A program made the position numbers and the translations under genes. From contig NZ_JAATVU010000034.1 in the NCBI RefSeq assembly GCF_013184745.1, positions 1 through 64,000 on the forward strand: a DNA stretch of 64,000 bases, written 5' to 3'. The notes beneath the pieces are model-generated. The model was not told where the DNA came from, did no database searches, and saw nothing but the letters and a program-made list of their open reading frames with translations. Source of the stretch: Mangrovicoccus sp. HB161399 (GTDB lineage Bacteria > Pseudomonadota > Alphaproteobacteria > Rhodobacterales > Rhodobacteraceae). How positions within the stretch are numbered: the stretch's first letter is position 1; each line of letters begins with the position of its first letter. Below are positions 51,337-63,355 of this stretch, piece after piece.

Positions 51337-51746
51337 GTGGTTCTTCCTTTCGTTGCGGTTCCGTAGTTCCAGAACCTTTTTTCACAACGCAAACCCGCCA
51401 GGAGGCAGGCAGCGCGGCGATCTTCGGCGAATCCGCTGCGCCGGGGCGCAATGCGGCAGCCGATTCTCAGTTGAGATGGCGTGAATTATGGAGAATCGCA
51501 GGCTAGGTCAAGGGTCGATCTGCGACACCCCGCCCAGTTGTGGGATCTGTCGGGCATGGGGCCCGGCGACCCGGAGAGTGTGTCACAAAACAAGCTGCGA
51601 CGCAAACCGGAGATTTCCGGCCCCGGACCGCGGCCGGCGGCGGCAGGCTTGACCGAACCGGACGGTTCGACTACCCCGGCAGCAGTCGGAAAACGTTGGA
51701 CCGGTCCGGTTATCCCGGTCCCCCGCCTCGGCGGGAGCTAGACGCG
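51337..51746. other. 410-bp divergent region between rpsM and a small membrane-protein gene
   Basis: This gap holds the rpsM promoter and a leader of about 150 bases, which could carry autogenous control. The half facing the small + strand gene is GC-rich and I see no clear promoter or RNA there. Confidence 0.5.
51485..51511 (-). promoter_or_regulatory. Probable promoter of the rpsM-rpsK-rpoA-rplQ operon
   Basis: On the minus strand TTGACC (51506-51511) and CATAAT (51485-51490) are separated by 15 bp. A one-base shifted ATAATT gives a 16-bp spacer. This lies about 150 bp upstream of rpsM. The box quality is high for this GC-rich genome; the spacing is slightly short. Confidence 0.6.
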
Positions 51747-52073
51747 ATGTCGATCCCGCGGCTGCCCACCCCAACCGGGGCCCGGCGGCGCGTGCCCGCC
51801 ATGCCCCCTGCCCGAGGACCTGACGTGCCACCGACGAAAGCCACCCTGATCACCGCCCAAGTCTTCATCTCGACGATGATGGCCTTCCTGATGACCGGCA
51901 TTTTCACCGCCCTGCCAATGCGCTTCGGCGACGGCTGGATCGCGGCCTGGATGCAGCGCTTCGCCCTCGCCTGGCCCGTCGCGTTCGTGCTTTCGCTGGG
52001 CGTCGGCCCGCTGGCCTTCCGGCTCGCCGGGCTGGCGATGCGGGCCTTCGGGCGCCTGACCTTCCGGCTCTGA
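51747..52073 (+). CDS. DUF2798-like small membrane protein
   Basis: 108 residues with two hydrophobic segments in the C-terminal 80 residues and Met-Met-Ala-Phe-Leu-Met-Thr-Gly near residue 43, like DUF2798 proteins. The function is unknown. The first 18 residues are Pro/Arg-rich. ATG 51747 has GGGAG upstream, but ATG 51801 would give the more usual length of about 90. It lies on the opposite strand between adk and rpsM, splitting the ribosomal run. Confidence 0.65.
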   Translation: MSIPRLPTPTGARRRVPAMPPARGPDVPPTKATLITAQVFISTMMAFLMTGIFTALPMRFGDGWIAAWMQRFALAWPVAFVLSLGVGPLAFRLAGLAMRAFGRLTFRL

Positions 52074-52133: not shown

Positions 52134-52715
52134 TCAGGCCGAGACGGACAGTGCGCCCAGAATGGCGGCCGTGACCTCGTCCATGGCCTGGTCGCCATTG
52201 ACGGTCTTCAGCTTGCCGGTGCCGCGGTAGTAGTCGACCAGCGGTGCGGTGTCCTTGTGGTAGTTCACCAGGCGCTTCTTCAGGGTCTCGGCATTGTCGT
52301 CGGCGCGGGTGCCGCCGCTCTCGGCGGCGCGCTTCTCGATGCGGCCGACGAGCAGCTCGTCCGGGACCTGCATCTCGACCACGGCGTCGAGGCTCATGCC
52401 CTTGTCGGCCAGCAGCTTGTCCAGCGCCTCGGCCTGGGCCGAAGTCCGCGGGAAACCGTCGAAGATCACGCCGTTCGACGCCTGGACGTCATCCTGGTCA
52501 AGACGCTCCGACACGACGCCGATGACGATCTCGTCCGAGACCAGGTCGCCGGCATCCATGACCGCCTTGGCCTTGAGGCCGATTTCGGTCCCGGCCTTCA
52601 CGGCGGCGCGCAGCATGTCGCCGGTGGAAAGCTGGACCATGCCCTGGCTGTCAATCAGCCGCTGGGCCTGGGTGCCCTTGCCCGCGCCCGGCGGTCCAAG
52701 AAGGATGATGTTCAT
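52134..52715 (-). CDS. adk: Adenylate kinase (short form)
   Basis: 193 residues. The P-loop Gly-Pro-Pro-Gly-Ala-Gly-Lys-Gly-Thr is at 7-15, Phe-Asp-Gly-Phe-Pro-Arg near 82. The LID is the short type (Glu-Ser-Gly-Gly-Thr-Arg-Ala-Asp-Asp-Asn) without zinc cysteines, as in other alphaproteobacteria. It interconverts ATP, ADP and AMP. It overlaps the secY stop by 4 bp. Confidence 0.96.
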   Translation of the reverse strand: MNIILLGPPGAGKGTQAQRLIDSQGMVQLSTGDMLRAAVKAGTEIGLKAKAVMDAGDLVSDEIVIGVVSERLDQDDVQASNGVIFDGFPRTSAQAEALDKLLADKGMSLDAVVEMQVPDELLVGRIEKRAAESGGTRADDNAETLKKRLVNYHKDTAPLVDYYRGTGKLKTVNGDQAMDEVTAAILGALSVSA

Positions 52716-54067
52716 TTGCGTCTCGTCCCTTTTTTGCTCCGCCTCTTTCCCCGGAGCTGTGACTTCTCGATCAGGCCTTCGTACTGGTGCGCCAGAAGGT
52801 GCGACTGGACCTGCTGGATCGTGTCCATCGTAACGGAGACGACAATAAGGACGGAAGTCCCCCCAAAGTAGAAGGGAATGCTCAACTGCGACCGCATGAC
52901 TTCGGGAAGGAGGCAAACAAGCGCCAAATACGCGGATCCGAGGACAAGAAGTCGCACGACCACGTAGTCAAGATATTCCGCGGTCCGCTTTCCGGGCCGA
53001 ATCCCCGGAACGAAGCCACCCTGATTCTTCAGGTTGTCCGCAACATCTTCGGTCTTGAATGCCACATTCTGCGTGTAAAAGTAAGTGAAGAAAACGATCA
53101 TCGCTGTAAAAAAGAGTAAATACAGCGGCTGGCCGGGACCGAAATAGGCCAGGATCGTCGACATCACCGGACCTGTCTGGGAGCCCGAGAAGGTCGCCAG
53201 CGTGGTCGGCAGCAGAAGCAGCGACGAGGCGAAGATCGCCGGGATGACGCCTGCCGGGTTCACCTTGATCGGCAGGTGGCTGGAGCCGCCGTCATACATC
53301 TTCATCCCGACCTGGCGGCGCGGGTACTGGATGTGCACCTTGCGCAGCGCCCGCTCCATGAAGACCACGAAGCCGATCGTGACGACGATCATCGCGATCA
53401 CCAGGAAGATCGTGCCGGGGCTGACGACGCCTGCCCGGCCCTGGGTGAAGAACTGGGCCAGGGCGGCCGGAACCTCGGCGATGATGCCGACGAAGATGAT
53501 CAGCGAAATGCCGTTGCCGATGCCGCGGGCGGTGATCTGCTCGCCCAGCCACATCAGGAACATGGTGCCGCCGACCAGCGTGATCATGCAGCCGACGCGG
53601 AAGAACCAGCCCGGATCGTGGGCAAGCCCGCCGGACTCGATCGACATTGCCAGGCCGTAGGATTGCACCAGAGCCAGCGCGACCGTGCCGTAGCGGGTGT
53701 ACTGGTTCAGCTTCTTGCGGCCCGCCTCGCCCTCTTTCTTGAGGTTCATCAGCGGCTCCCACATCGAGCCCAGGAGCTGGACGATGATCGAGGCCGAGAT
53801 GTAGGGCATGATGCCGAGGGCGAAGATGCCCATCCGGCTGATCGCGCCGCCGGTGAACATGTTCAGGACGCCGCCGATCCCGGAGGTCGCCTGCTCCATG
53901 AAGGCCCGCAGTTCCGCGCCGTCGATGCCGGGAACCGGGATGTAGGTGCCCAGCCGGTAGACGATCAGGAGACCGATGGTGAATAGGATCCGCTGGCGCA
54001 GCTCGGTTGCCTTGCCGAAGGCCCCCCAACTGAGATTCTGCGCCATCTGTTCCGCTGCTGAAGCCAT
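52712..54067 (-). CDS. secY: SecY, protein translocase channel subunit
   Basis: 451 residues with ten membrane helices. Tyr-Arg-Leu-Gly-Thr-Tyr-Ile-Pro-Val-Pro-Gly-Ile-Asp near residue 41 and the plug-region Gly-Ile-Gly-Gly-Val-Leu-Asn-Met-Phe are standard. It forms the SecYEG pore. It is preceded by strong hairpins and followed by adk. Confidence 0.97.
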   Translation of the reverse strand: MASAAEQMAQNLSWGAFGKATELRQRILFTIGLLIVYRLGTYIPVPGIDGAELRAFMEQATSGIGGVLNMFTGGAISRMGIFALGIMPYISASIIVQLLGSMWEPLMNLKKEGEAGRKKLNQYTRYGTVALALVQSYGLAMSIESGGLAHDPGWFFRVGCMITLVGGTMFLMWLGEQITARGIGNGISLIIFVGIIAEVPAALAQFFTQGRAGVVSPGTIFLVIAMIVVTIGFVVFMERALRKVHIQYPRRQVGMKMYDGGSSHLPIKVNPAGVIPAIFASSLLLLPTTLATFSGSQTGPVMSTILAYFGPGQPLYLLFFTAMIVFFTYFYTQNVAFKTEDVADNLKNQGGFVPGIRPGKRTAEYLDYVVVRLLVLGSAYLALVCLLPEVMRSQLSIPFYFGGTSVLIVVSVTMDTIQQVQSHLLAHQYEGLIEKSQLRGKRRSKKGTRRK

Positions 54068-54692: not shown

Positions 54693-54786
54693 GTCGCTTC
54701 TCCTTGCCGGACATGACCCCTGAAGCGGATGGATCAGCCACGGCTCTTCTTGATTATGGATTCGGATCCGTTCGGACCACCGCGCG

Positions 54787-54815
54787 CCTATATCGCCGGT
54801 TGCCGGCGGGATCAA
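54787..54815 (-). promoter_or_regulatory. Promoter of the rplO-secY-adk unit
   Basis: On the minus strand TTGATC (54810-54815), a 17-bp spacer and TATAGG (54787-54792) form a strong housekeeping-type promoter 95 bp before rplO. The -10 hexamer is identical to that of the rpmC promoter at 63178-63183. Confidence 0.75.
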
Positions 54816-54851
54816 GGGTCTTGGCGGCTCCGCGCCCTTTGCAGGAAGGGC

Positions 54852-55562
54852 TCAATCGGCCGGATCGAGCATCCCGTAGAGCGGACAGCCCAGCGTCACC
54901 TGCAGCGCCGCGACCAGCTGCTCGACCGTCTCGGCCGAGATGTACTGCCCCCCCGTCTGCTCGGCCAGGCAGCGCGCCGGAGACTGCGCGTCGGTATAGT
55001 CGTTCGAGGCTTCCTTGTCCCACAGGAACCGCTCGCCCCGCACCTTGTAGCCGATGACATGGACCTTCAGCCCGGGATGCTCCTTCGCGAGGTAGGCGGC
55101 CAGCTCGCAGGGGGCGCCGCCGCAGGTCTCCTTGCCGTCGGTGACCAGGACCACGTCGCCGGTGCCGCCGTCGTTGGCCAGCAGCGCGGCGGCCCTCCGG
55201 ACCGCTTCGGTCAGCGGCGTCTCGCCGTCCGGCTGCAGCGCCTCGACGGCATCGATCACCGGGCCGGATGCATCCGGGATTGGCGGAAAGCGCAGCTCGA
55301 TGTTCTCGCAGGTCGCCCCTGCCCCGGGCCCGTAGATCATCAGCCCGATCCGCCGCAGCCCGTCGAGCCGCGGCATCACCATTCTCAGCGCCCTGCGGGC
55401 CTCGAAGATGCGCGGCTCCGACAGCTGGTTGAAGCCCATTTCCGACATCGATCCCGAGCCGTCGAATACGACCATCGCGTCTCGGCTGCATTCCTGGGCG
55501 GAAAGGGCAGACGGCAGGATCAGGGCCAGGATCGGTGCAAGGGCCAGATACAGCATGCGCAT
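54852..55562 (-). CDS. Secreted VWA-domain protein
   Basis: 236 residues. A signal peptide (cut after Ala-Leu-Ser-Ala near 22) precedes a von Willebrand A domain with an intact MIDAS (Asp-Gly-Ser-Gly-Ser near 34, Thr near 114, Val-Thr-Asp-Gly-Lys-Glu near 138). Paired Cys residues (25/86 and near 144/149) suggest periplasmic disulfides. It should bind a protein ligand through a metal ion; the partner is unknown. It is inserted between rplO and rpmD. Confidence 0.87.
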   Translation of the reverse strand: MRMLYLALAPILALILPSALSAQECSRDAMVVFDGSGSMSEMGFNQLSEPRIFEARRALRMVMPRLDGLRRIGLMIYGPGAGATCENIELRFPPIPDASGPVIDAVEALQPDGETPLTEAVRRAAALLANDGGTGDVVLVTDGKETCGGAPCELAAYLAKEHPGLKVHVIGYKVRGERFLWDKEASNDYTDAQSPARCLAEQTGGQYISAETVEQLVAALQVTLGCPLYGMLDPAD

Positions 55563-55705
55563 GGGAAAACTCTGCTCCCGCGCCGGCCTCCGGGCAAGCC
55601 TCCTGTTCTGCGACTTTCGCAGGATGCCGCGATTTGCCGAAACTTTTCGCGACGGAACCGCCCCGCCCGCCCGTTGCAGAGCCGGAACAGTTCGAAAGGC
55701 CAGTG

Positions 55706-56848
55706 ATGTTTCGGAAAATCCTTTTCTGGGCGCATTTCGCCGCCGGCGCGCTTGCCGGCATTTTCATTTTCCTGATGTCCGCCACCGGACTCCTGCTGAC
55801 CTACGAGGCGCAGATCACCGAGTTCGCCGTGCGGTCCGCGGTAGAGGCGCCGGCCGGGGCCGCACCGCTCGATGCAAATGCCATGCTGGCCGCCGCTGCG
55901 GCCGCCGGGGCGCAGCCGGGCCAGACGCTGGTGCTGCACTCGGACCCGTCCGTGCCCGCGGAGGTGCGCGCCGGGCGGAGCGGCACGCGGCTCGATCCCT
56001 ATAGCGGGGCACCGATGGAGGAGGCAGGCGCCGGAGCCGAGGCATTCTTCCGGCAGGTGACGTTCCTCCACCGCTGGCTCAGCGTTTCCGGTCCGTCCGA
56101 CACCGGCGGCGCGATCAACGGTGCCGCCAATCTCGCCTTCCTGTTCCTCGTCGCGTCGGGGATGTACCTGTGGCTTCCGCCGGTGATGCGCTGGTCGCAA
56201 GTCAAGCTGCGGCTGCTGCTGCGCCGCGGGCTGCCGACCGCGCAGGCCCGCCACTTCAACTGGCACCATGTCTTCGGTGCCTGGGCGCTGGTGCCGCTCT
56301 TCCTCGTCGTACTGTCTGGCGTCGTGATCACCTATCCATGGGCGTCGAACCTCGTCTTCGCCGCTGCCGGCGAAACCGCCCCGGCCGGCCGGGGTGCGGG
56401 CGGCGGCGCAATGCCGGCCTCGCTGGCCTCCGAAACGCTCGGCGAGGCCGCGCCGCTCGATGCTGATGCCCTCTATGCCGCTGCGGGCGCGCTGGTCCCG
56501 GGCTGGAAGACCGCGGCGCTGACCCTGCCCGCCGCAGATGCCCGCTATGCCGGGTTCTCCATGGACCGGGGCAACGGCCGACAGGCCGGCCTGCGCGAAA
56601 CGCTGGTGATCGACAGGGAAACCGGGGCTGCCGTCGCCCGCAGCGGAGCGGAGGCACAGAGCCTTGGCACGCGCCTGCGCATCTGGTTCCGCTTCGTCCA
56701 TACCGGCGAGGTCTACGGCATCCTCGGCCAGACCGCCGCCGGGCTCGCCTGCATCGCCGCGATGATGCTGGTCTATACCGGCTTTTCGCTGGGCCTGCGC
56801 AGGTTGGGCCGGATGCGGCGCAAGGCCAGGGCGCGCGCTGCCGCCTGA
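55706..56848 (+). CDS. PepSY-associated membrane protein (PiuB-like)
   Basis: 380 residues. Membrane helices lie at about 10-30, 140-160, 190-215 and 345-365, with periplasmic regions between them, and conserved His residues (Ala-His-Phe near 10, Leu-His-Arg-Trp near 120, His-His-Val near 190). This is the PepSY_TM layout of iron-regulated or ferric-reductase-like membrane proteins. No siderophore receptor or reductase partner is adjacent. ATG 55706 is chosen at the start of the first helix. Confidence 0.85.
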   Translation: MFRKILFWAHFAAGALAGIFIFLMSATGLLLTYEAQITEFAVRSAVEAPAGAAPLDANAMLAAAAAAGAQPGQTLVLHSDPSVPAEVRAGRSGTRLDPYSGAPMEEAGAGAEAFFRQVTFLHRWLSVSGPSDTGGAINGAANLAFLFLVASGMYLWLPPVMRWSQVKLRLLLRRGLPTAQARHFNWHHVFGAWALVPLFLVVLSGVVITYPWASNLVFAAAGETAPAGRGAGGGAMPASLASETLGEAAPLDADALYAAAGALVPGWKTAALTLPAADARYAGFSMDRGNGRQAGLRETLVIDRETGAAVARSGAEAQSLGTRLRIWFRFVHTGEVYGILGQTAAGLACIAAMMLVYTGFSLGLRRLGRMRRKARARAAA

Positions 56849-56922
56849 GGGGGCCGCGGTGCGGCGTGCATGACCCGGCGACCGGCGCTATCATCGGCTC
56901 CGCAACCAAGCAGGAGACCGAG

Positions 56923-57450
56923 ATGCCGCCCCCGCCCCGGGTCATCCATGCCACCGACGGGACGCCCTACACGCTGCGGCCGATCCGGCAGGACGACGCG
57001 CCGTCCCTGATCCGCGGCTTCGAGGCGATGCCGCCCCGGAACCGCTGGTTCCGGCTGCTCCACCCGGTGCCGCATCTGACGCCGGAGATGGCGGCGGAGT
57101 TCTGCCGCCCCAATCCGCGCCACACGGTCTGCCTCGTGGTTGAAGGGCGCGGCCCGCTCGAGGGCGACATCCTCGGCGGCGCCCGCATCACCGATCTGGA
57201 ACGCGGCGAACCGGCCGAATTCTCGGTCTCGCTCCGGCCGGAAGCCGAGGGCATGGGGCTGGCCCGGCAATCGCTGGAGGCGGTGATCGGCGTCGCGCGC
57301 AGCCGCGGGGCGACCGGCGTCTGGGGCAGCATCTCGGGCGACAACAGCTGGATGCTGGGCCTCGCCAAGCGGCTGGGGATGAGCCTGTCGCTCGATCCCG
57401 ACGATTTCTCGCTGCGCCTCGCCCGACTTGATTTCGGTCCCGAAGACTGA
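56923..57450 (+). CDS. GNAT-family N-acetyltransferase
   Basis: 175 residues with a GNAT fold: Leu-Arg-Pro-Ile-Arg-Gln-Asp-Asp near 17 and an acetyl-CoA-binding region Arg-Pro-Glu-Ala-Glu-Gly-Met-Gly-Leu-Ala-Arg near 105. It resembles the GNAT domain attached to some acyl-CoA synthetases (Pat type), but stands alone. GGAG precedes ATG 56923; the GTG at 56866 lies too close to the upstream gene. Confidence 0.8.
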   Translation: MPPPPRVIHATDGTPYTLRPIRQDDAPSLIRGFEAMPPRNRWFRLLHPVPHLTPEMAAEFCRPNPRHTVCLVVEGRGPLEGDILGGARITDLERGEPAEFSVSLRPEAEGMGLARQSLEAVIGVARSRGATGVWGSISGDNSWMLGLAKRLGMSLSLDPDDFSLRLARLDFGPED

Positions 57451-57452
57451 GC

Positions 57453-57761
57453 TCAGCGCTTGGCCAGCCGCCGGCTGTTGGCGCGGGTCTTGGCCTCTAT
57501 CGGGCGCATCGCCGCCAGCATCGCCGCAGCCGTCCCCTTGCTTCCTGCAGTGGCGCGCACCGCCATCTCGAAGGACTTCGCGAAGGCTGCCGGTTTCTCC
57601 ATCACCATCCGCGCCGCCTCTTCGGGGCGCATCGTGCCGAGGGCCATCTGCATCGTCCGTTGCTGGATGACCGCCGAGGCGGAGAACATCATGCGGCTGT
57701 AGGACAGGGTGAATTCCTGCCAGGTTCGCGCGGCCGTCATCGCCGCCTTCATGTCGTACAT
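57453..57761 (-). CDS. Small helical protein, phasin-like, function unknown
   Basis: 102 residues, mostly amphipathic helix rich in Ala and Met, with Arg-Thr-Trp-Gln-Glu-Phe near 12 and a basic C-terminus. Similar short Rhodobacterales proteins carry annotations such as antifreeze protein or phasin, neither well founded. It is convergent with the GNAT gene, 2 bp apart, within the island that splits the spc operon. Confidence 0.6.
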   Translation of the reverse strand: MYDMKAAMTAARTWQEFTLSYSRMMFSASAVIQQRTMQMALGTMRPEEAARMVMEKPAAFAKSFEMAVRATAGSKGTAAAMLAAMRPIEAKTRANSRRLAKR

Positions 57762-57848
57762 GGCACTGCTCGCTTCTTTCCGTTGTAGGGGGTTACCTAG
57801 CCCGTGCCGGCGCCGGGCGGAAGGGCGGAAGGGCGGACGGTCCGCGTC

Positions 57849-58625
57849 TCAGGCCGCCTGCCGTTCTCGGGCCGCCCCGAGGATCGCGCCCAGCGTCGCG
57901 TCATGCAGCATCCCGCGCTGGCCGACCTGCGCGAAGGCGTGGTCGGCCATCGGGTAGAGCCGCCGCACCGCCTGGGGAATCCGCATCAGGTAGGTCTCGG
58001 ACACCGATGGCGGCACGATCGCATCCTCGCTGCCGTGATGCAGGGTCACCGGACAGGAGATGCGATCGGACCCCTCGAGCGGATCGAAATCCAGCGCCGC
58101 CTCGCGGAAGGCCGCCCCCAGCGCCTGGCCGTTGAAATCGAAGGTGCGGCCCGCATCCAGCGGTGCGAGGCTTCGGCCCCGGATATGGCCCGCGCGGATC
58201 TCGTCGGCAAAATTGGCGGCGGGCGCCCAGAGATGCAGGCTCGCGATGTCGGACGGCCGCCGGGCAGCCAGGCAGGCCGCTTCCATGGCGCCCAGCGAAT
58301 GGCCGGCCAGGTGGACCTGCGCGCGGGACGGACCCTGCGCGTAGTCTAGCATCGCCGAAAGCTGGTCGATCTCGTCGGGCACGGAAATGTCGGCGAAGGC
58401 CCCCTCGCTCTCGCCGTGGCCGGCACGGTCGAAGGCGAAGACGGCAAAACCCTCGGCTTGCAGGCGGCGGGCGAAATCCGAAAGCAGCCGCCCCGGGCCG
58501 ATCCGGTTTCCGGAAAACCCGTGGACGAGCATGACGGAGCCCATCGGGCTGCGGTCGGCCGGATAGAAGGCTCCGTAGAGCGTCAGGCCGCGATGGGAAA
58601 TGTCGATCTGGCGAAGCGTGGACAC
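57849..58625 (-). CDS. Alpha/beta hydrolase
   Basis: 258 residues. The oxyanion region His-Gly-Phe-Ser-Gly-Asn is near 35, the nucleophile elbow Gly-His-Ser-Leu-Gly near 109, an acid in Gly-Ser-Glu-Asp-Ala near 198, and the catalytic His in Ala-Asp-His-Ala-Phe near 229. It is a serine esterase or lipase-type enzyme of unknown substrate. The start is GTG 58625 with AGGAG upstream. Confidence 0.87.
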   Translation of the reverse strand: MSTLRQIDISHRGLTLYGAFYPADRSPMGSVMLVHGFSGNRIGPGRLLSDFARRLQAEGFAVFAFDRAGHGESEGAFADISVPDEIDQLSAMLDYAQGPSRAQVHLAGHSLGAMEAACLAARRPSDIASLHLWAPAANFADEIRAGHIRGRSLAPLDAGRTFDFNGQALGAAFREAALDFDPLEGSDRISCPVTLHHGSEDAIVPPSVSETYLMRIPQAVRRLYPMADHAFAQVGQRGMLHDATLGAILGAARERQAA

Positions 58626-58701
58626 CGGGTCTCTCCTGTCTCGTTGCAGGGCGAACGCGCAGCGGGATCAGGGGTTCCGGGCTTGCACTCGGCAGAAAGC
58701 A

Positions 58702-58731
58702 GAACGCCCCGGCACTGGGGCCGGGGCGTTC
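58702..58731 (-). terminator. Hairpin terminator after rpmD
   Basis: A perfect 12-bp stem (58702-58713 with 58720-58731) begins 22 bp after the rpmD stop. The minus strand beyond it is T-rich but interrupted (TGCTTTCT). It probably ends the rpmC-to-rpmD transcript and separates it from the accessory genes. Confidence 0.75.
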
Positions 58732-58753
58732 GGATTCGAGGTCGGAGAGGGGC

Positions 58754-63281: not shown

Positions 63282-63355
63282 TGGAGCGGGTAGTCGGAAT
63301 CGAACCGACACCAAGAGCTTGGAAGGCTCGTGTGATACCATTTCACCATACCCGC
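63282..63355 (-). tRNA. tRNA-Gly (anticodon TCC)
   Basis: The minus strand gives a full cloverleaf: acceptor GCGGGTA with TACCCGC, D loop AAATGGTA, anticodon loop CTTCCAA with TCC, T loop TTCGATT, discriminator T and encoded CCA. It reads GGA/GGG codons. It lies just upstream of the rpmC promoter. Confidence 0.95.

Follow-up and report, generated by a model that had tools for sequence, protein, structure and literature searches.

The spc operon is split between the ribosomal protein genes rpmD and rplO in the window, a stretch of 64,000 nucleotides from Mangrovicoccus sp. HB161399 (Alphaproteobacteria; Rhodobacterales; Rhodobacteraceae; contig NZ_JAATVU010000034.1). As read from sequence, the split is bordered by a conserved terminator-like hairpin after rpmD (T), a predicted promoter before rplO (P) and a structured RNA leader at the start of rplO (R). 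T, P and R recur together as sequence features in the family of the window, and the paired bases of R covary. We consider it probable that this boundary is what makes the operon splittable, with R functioning as a ribosomal protein leader (r-leader) that represses translation of rplO in feedback from L15 or another ribosomal protein. Moreover, there is close to an even chance that the RNA preceded the split. An L15-responsive pseudoknotted leader would then have arisen close to the root of the Rhodobacterales, while the spc operon was still intact, and cutting of the operon, gain of cargo genes and separation of the two halves would have followed.

In the window, rpmD (L30; 58754-58942, reverse strand; TIGR01308, 82.9 bits) is intact and closes the upstream half of spc. 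The first gene of the restarted half is an intact rplO (L15; 54171-54692, reverse strand; TIGR01071, 139.6 bits), followed by secY (52712-54067, reverse strand; an open reading frame with tblastn orthologues 3' of rplO) as second gene and adk (52134-52715, reverse strand; NF001381, expect value (E) 9.3e-79) as third. The distance between rpmD and rplO is 4.06 kb, and it is occupied by five unrelated frames on both strands, as an earlier note made from the letters of this DNA had described. T (58692-58731, reverse strand) is located 3' of rpmD and includes the 12-bp hairpin reported in the same note (58731-58702), of which 10 pairs are GC and which is followed by a T-rich tail. P, with the sequence TTGATC-17-TATAGG, is also present as reported (54815-54787 on the reverse strand, 123 nt 5' of the start codon of rplO). 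The description of P as near-consensus was too strong, as it matches 8 of the 12 consensus letters; a generic promoter scan of the window gave 0 promoter-like sites, with 0.3 expected, and left this pair unlisted. The promoter of the window becomes convincing only by comparison, as 50 of 54 expanded loci have a -35/-10 pair in the corresponding position, which supports the proposal of a separate promoter for rplO.

The distance between rpmD and rplO, which the earlier note had suggested comparing, was measured between Pfam matches in 61 genomes, 37 of which belong to the family of the window; gaps of <550 nt were regarded as compact in this survey. Expansion recurs across the family. Among the 32 family genomes with both genes, 10 were compact, 19 were expanded (806 to 5387 nt) and 3 had the genes on different contigs (G001, G013 and G026). 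Outside the family, both genes were found in 21 of 24 genomes, all 21 of which were compact (252 to 343 nt). The named loci (n=80) agreed with the genome survey. The gaps of L127-L148 ranged from 6 to 139 nt and those of L070-L126 from 58 to 5377 nt where the locus includes rplO. In the family of the window, the gap ranges from ~0.1 to >5 kb, with varying cargo. The counts exclude L108, whose gap is identical to that of L051, and L148, whose gap is identical to that of L139 and which was checked for R. In L069, L071, L080, L087, L093 and L120, no rplO was found within ~9.8 kb of rpmD; in L097, L100, L106, L109 and L123 the contig or locus ends sooner than that, and the last four of these, which have no rplO on the fetched locus, are outside the gap, P and R counts.

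In some family members, the two halves are far apart. The rplO of Sedimentitalea nanhaiensis is ~137 kb downstream of rpmD on the same 4.4-Mb contig, and that of Oceaniglobus indicus is ~10 kb from rpmD. Ruegeria sp. HKCCD7303 (L165) has its rpmC-rpmD run and rplO on opposite strands, with the start of rplO ~7 kb past rpmC. In Pseudooceanicola nanhaiensis and G026, rpmD and rplO are located on separate contigs, each >1 Mb. The contigs of G001 (M. ximenensis), G013, Roseobacter SK209-2-6 and L120 are short and do not fix the distance.

For the analysis of the boundary, expanded loci were defined as those whose gap was 400 nt or longer (n=54). A terminator-like hairpin was found at most 200 nt from rpmD in all 54 of them, compared with 66 of 336 control windows placed within the islands and 10 of 42 letter-shuffled first 200 nt. 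Its core, CGCC(C/T)C...GGGGCG, was found in 26 of the 54. Such a hairpin was also found in 4 of 7 loci with gaps of 200-399 nt, in 4 of 15 compact family-like loci, where very short gaps leave no room, and, by eye, in 9 of 9 loci with rplO away from rpmD or on another contig. P was counted as TTGnnn, a spacer of 16-18 and TA(T/A)(A/T)N(G/C), located between -110 and -165 from the rplO start. It was identified in 50 of the 54 expanded loci, ~125 nt 5' of rplO, in 5 of 7 loci with gaps of 200-399 nt and in 11 of 13 separated or contig-cut loci. P was found in none of the 15 compact loci or the 20 loci of other alphaproteobacteria, nor, in the same genomes, upstream of rpmD (0/61), secY (0/61), adk (0/57) or rpsE (0/23). 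The pattern occurred in 0.6% of shuffles of the expanded set. In a separate observation, promoter-like scores 5' of rpsM were above those of shuffles in the family and in other alphaproteobacteria alike; unlike at rpsM, the rise 5' of rplO was clear only in the family of the window.

Alignment of the sequences before rplO revealed the block GCCGtG...TCCGGC-AAGGAGA-AGCGAC-ATG. The predicted fold consists of helix P1 (GCCG/CGGC with a bulge) and helix P2, together with an H-type pseudoknot in which the apical loop is paired to the spacer that separates the Shine-Dalgarno sequence from AUG. In the window, R (54693-54744, reverse strand) matches the covariance model with 76 bits (E 5.6e-18). Its helix P1 comprises 54744-54741/54709-54706 plus 54739-54710, its helix P2 comprises 54736-54731/54719-54714, and the loop CGCUUC (54727-54722) pairs with GAAGCG (54700-54695), from the last Shine-Dalgarno base through the spacer. 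The Shine-Dalgarno sequence itself, as read from the sequence, is AGGAG (54700-54704, reverse strand), and its last base is within the pseudoknot.

The fold is reflected in the substitutions among the leaders. In an RNAalifold analysis of 56 leaders, helix P1 was invariant and helix P2 showed two-sided changes in all five pairs. In the covariance-model alignment, 94.7% of the P1/P2 cells were paired, compared with 83.1% after shuffling; the covariation score was 0.297 versus 0.085, 0 of 500 shuffles scored as high, and slid structures reached at most 0.070. For the pseudoknot helix alone, 86.9% were paired versus 82.5% (0/500) and the score was 0.083 versus 0.022 (0/500). In addition, in a test of 72 leaders that is independent of the columns of the model alignment, the pairing weight of the loops with their own start regions was 16.8, whereas that with the start regions of others averaged 15.0 and the best of 500 permutations gave 15.6; shuffled loops gave 11.0. 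Neither null removes shared ancestry. L043 was unparsed in the own-versus-other comparison. A letter-shuffle test of the pseudoknot, in which three leaders were unparsed, was set aside, as it is biased to pairing, the best CGC being chosen per loop. The pairs of loop and start region include GUCGCU/AGCGAC, GUCGCA/UGCGAC (L048, L062, L092, L107 and L115) and GACGC/GCGUC (L036, L039, L121 and L127).

Thus, R is a covarying RNA structure and is located in the 5' leader of rplO, where its pairing would occlude the ribosome-binding site. The search for autoregulatory sites in the rplO leader that the earlier note had proposed was fruitful, as a covarying structure was found at the ribosome-binding site of rplO, and its suggestion that the restarted half needs separate balancing is plausible. 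A transcriptional attenuator was considered and rejected: what comes 3' of the TCCGGC arm is the AAGGAGA-AGCGAC block, not a T-run. As no U-run follows the hairpin, a translational rather than an attenuation mechanism is likely. Comparison of the window leader with Rfam 15 found nothing above the gathering threshold and nothing to E 10, except a match with E 9.1 on the other strand. In L144 and L146, two loci of other alphaproteobacteria, one of which is named Marinicaulis, GGCGGC...GCCGUC was seen by eye at most 75 nt before rplO and is perhaps another structured leader.

The covariance model was built from 56 leaders and searched against 100 sources (1.66 Mb). It gave 73 matches at E<=1, 71 of which were at <=3.3e-5, and all 73 were at the start of rplO; L036, L039, L047, L051, L077, L101, L112, L122 and L127 are among the matches from outside the model. 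R was found in 54 of 54 expanded loci, 6 of 7 loci with gaps of 200-399 nt, 10 of 15 compact loci and 0 of 21 loci of other alphaproteobacteria, and it was kept in 9 of 9 loci with rplO away from rpmD or on another contig (four of the nine are in the model). Among family genomes for which a completeness of at least 90% was asked, 176 of 199 had R, its place relative to rplO not being checked singly. In the class sample, R was found in 4 of 240 genomes, 3 of which belong to the same family. The match in G082 (E 0.005), the only one outside the family, was set aside as chance, as no queried spc/alpha gene was found in its 3.2 kb. The genome of the window itself had no other match better than E 2.3. 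Five of the 199 family genomes had two matches, of which those of G379 had equal scores on two contigs.

A tree built from the concatenated sequences of seven proteins (97 loci) and rooted on L128-L147 suggests how old R is. Neomegalonema L127, which belongs to another family of the Rhodobacterales, is sister to the family loci (support of 99 for the joint clade and 96 for the family alone). R is present and P absent in the outgroup-most L127 as well as in L121/L039, which branch early, and the gaps of all three are compact. By eye, R has a diverged form in L043/L053, the earliest pair, with GUCG/CGAC in helix P1 and GACGC/GCGUC; the model matches L043 with E 0.13 and does not match L053. P together with a 0.6-kb gap first appears in L119 (support 86). 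L122, L047, L112, L077 and L101 are compact again and have R but no P, and L050 and L118/L068 are without both. R probably came first, because compact loci that branch early carry it and have neither promoter nor cargo. The simplest reading of these sequences is that R was followed by T and P, then by cargo and then by separation, with some re-compaction.

The cargo of the window consists of an alpha/beta hydrolase (57849-58625, reverse strand; PF12146, E 1e-20), a phasin-like protein of 102 amino acids (57453-57761, reverse strand; NF045536 (PhaP6), E 1.4e-7, far under the curated cut-off), a GNAT acetyltransferase (56923-57450 in an open frame from 56866, forward strand; PF13302, E 1.8e-11), a PepSY_TM membrane protein (55706-56848, forward strand; PF03929, E 1.2e-42) and a VWA-domain protein (54852-55562, reverse strand; PF13519, E 1.7e-8). 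The VWA-domain protein has relatives in other islands, and the phasin-like protein, which has no Pfam match, has relatives in 3 other islands. Overall, 125 selected cargo frames from 51 islands formed 79 clusters, 60 of which were single frames; frames were called by homology between islands and by length, so that those without homologues may include chance open reading frames. The largest clusters, named from their scanned members only, were DUF1127 small proteins (11 frames in 10 islands), VWA proteins (6 islands) and cytochrome P450 (6 frames in 5 islands), and a further large cluster was a family of 61-81 amino acids without a Pfam match (5). The other scanned cargo included MarC, a DEAD helicase, a chemotaxis receptor, cytochromes, PPK2, ectoine synthase, a PALP/ACT enzyme and LysR.

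Variation of the cargo between genera, together with the GC content of the island (67-71%, versus 62-67% in the ribosomal protein stretches), would fit a mobile genomic island that was inserted into the operon by chance, with the promoter a chance match. This explanation is improbable and was rejected: no integrase or transposase family was identified by Pfam among the 80 frames scanned of the 125 selected cargo frames, the island of the window has no long flanking direct repeat, only short imperfect ones, and T, P and R are common to genera with unrelated cargo. The 4-kb island, which the earlier note had taken as the splitting event, is probably not that event, because most of the family shares the T-P-R boundary irrespective of cargo, the cargo varies by genus and R appears older than P and cargo on the tree. 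An assembly error at the island edges, one of the refutations named in that note, could be imagined for a draft genome of 323 contigs. Its chance is close to nil, because the arrangement is found on one contig each in G002 and G003 of the same genus, which have most of the cargo in common with the window (the hydrolase is missing from the island of G002 and PepSY from that of G003); the expanded loci number 54 overall. In G001 (L032 and L033), a break at the PepSY gene divides the island between two contigs, one with only a PepSY fragment and the other with none found, which reflects either a rearrangement or an assembly break.

Other features of the window locus were observed around the split operon. 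A DUF2798 gene (51738-52073, forward strand) is antisense between adk and rpsM, so that the spc/alpha junction is also interrupted in the window. A tRNA-Gly(TCC) gene (63282-63355, reverse strand) is directly 5' of rpmC at the S10/spc side; it is also found in L033 of the same genus and was not found in the other 10 loci scanned. In each of the four genomes of the genus, the Pfam match of L15 (54207-54470 in the window, reverse strand) covers 264 nt, versus ~210-228 nt elsewhere, indicating that L15 carries an insertion specific to the genus.

RNA folding that masks the stretch between the Shine-Dalgarno sequence and AUG hinders initiation of translation. At the boundary described here, T would end the upstream spc transcript after rpmD, and P would restart transcription ~90 nt before rplO. 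The pseudoknot of R over the start region would be expected to block binding of the 30S subunit and so repress translation. Excess L15, or another ribosomal protein, would stabilize R and repress rplO and, via coupling, secY and adk. L15 is the suggested effector because rplO is the first and adjacent gene. As the restarted half would then be transcribed from a promoter of its own and regulated by separate feedback, the stretch between T and P would tolerate insertions. Unrelated genes are gained and lost between T and P, and the halves have come to lie far apart in some lineages.

The same leader and the same repression might instead answer to an effector other than L15, such as another ribosomal protein (for example S8), a Sec-pathway signal for SecY, or temperature. 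SecY and Adk are encoded in the same gene run as rplO, no rRNA mimicry points to L15, and E. coli spc is controlled by S8, not L15, according to parts of PMC2704228. We regard a different effector as rather unlikely, since the confinement of all matches among the 100 sources to rplO starts, with no convincing second match in the genome of the window, favors the product of the adjacent gene; the principle that r-leader ligands are encoded by the adjacent gene is itself called uncertain by its authors in parts of PMC7247131. Alternatively, the hairpin and pseudoknot might be a passive initiation or mRNA-stability element, whose constant output sets the dose of L15, SecY and Adk with no feedback. 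Retention of R in most family genomes regardless of cargo is compatible with such an element, as is the lack of a known ligand. R is also present in early-branching, unsplit compact loci without P and is therefore not a repair for splitting, and a start masked by two helices that support each other would exceed what a fixed dose requires, which makes passive function unlikely.

Several results weigh against R as an L15-responsive r-leader at a boundary of the proposed kind. Regarding the ligand, gene position is what points to L15, because no persuasive resemblance to 23S rRNA was found in the two 23S genes of the window's own genome, either with the covariance model with its filters off or with motif patterns. 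The model gave three weak matches against the two 23S loci, the best of which (7.9 bits, E 1.6) is on the strand opposite the 23S gene, and loose leader motif patterns fit a few 23S places, none persuasively. Regarding the structure, the P1/P2 counts come from a model-fitted alignment that leans to P1/P2, and the pseudoknot is not in the model. By weaker measures the pseudoknot helix did not stand out, as its both-side-changed pairs were reached by 249 of 500 shuffles and its further pair types by 29 of 500, and two-sided change was absent from 3 of 5 aligned pseudoknot pairs. Single-sequence folds of five leaders were also not unusually stable (z -0.5 to -0.8). Regarding distribution, 23 of the 199 family genomes had no R match, R was missing from the compact L050, L068 and L118 and from L065, and P was absent from 4 of the 54 expanded loci (L049, L074, L075 and L114); moreover, the P pattern was formulated after the counted loci had been viewed, and the covariance model was likewise built from many of them. 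Weak second matches of R occurred in G284, G296, G298 and G387 (E 0.002-0.01; ~2 expected by chance), and no queried spc/alpha gene was nearby. The one in G387 (L178, ~1501-1576; E 0.005) is directly before rplD and is probably due to chance, yet it is at the start of a ribosomal protein gene. Finally, the compact L036 and L051, which have R but no P, branch inside L119 (first-node support 61). Therefore, either L119 is misplaced or P was gained early and lost later; losses of P are evident, and the deepest order of steps is not firmly resolved.

Even with these points, a feedback-regulated boundary of T, P and R probably explains the split. Why the order of the S10, spc and alpha operons is conserved is an old question, for which balanced synthesis of ribosomal proteins is one proposed reason. 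Within the family, the spc operons form a natural series that runs from intact to split, cargo-laden and separated, together with a candidate RNA that is seemingly older than the split, so that the idea that local feedback frees genes from an operon becomes directly testable. If this explanation is correct, the dosage of the ribosome, the translocon (SecY) and adenylate kinase would be tied to one switch.

It is common for one of the proteins encoded in a ribosomal protein operon to control that operon, as described in parts of PMC7247131 and PMC4137082. Similar to R, the r-leaders treated in those parts, including the S15/rpsO regulators, some of which are pseudoknotted, and the 20 candidates of Eckert and Weinberg (2020), are covarying 5' leaders that include the ribosome-binding site and are usually narrow in taxonomic range. 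Different from R, no bacterial L15 leader is listed in parts of Table 1 of PMC7247131, where eL15 is a eukaryotic/archaeal protein. In the literature searched, from which supplements and subscription papers were outside the scope, neither a leader for L15/rplO nor a split of spc in this family was found. Given this result and the lack of an Rfam match, R appears to be a new candidate r-leader class at an unusual, staged operon split. The S8 control of E. coli spc shares translational feedback inside spc with the regulation proposed here and differs in position, as R is at rplO, far downstream. Insertions of unrelated genes into the same gene cluster, and sometimes complete disconnection of a gene pair, are described for other groups in parts of PMC8046335, similar to our results, as is one Bacillus with secY outside spc. 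The multi-gene insertions described there are between operons or at rplL-rsmC, whereas the break in the family of the window is inside spc and is bordered by T, P and R.

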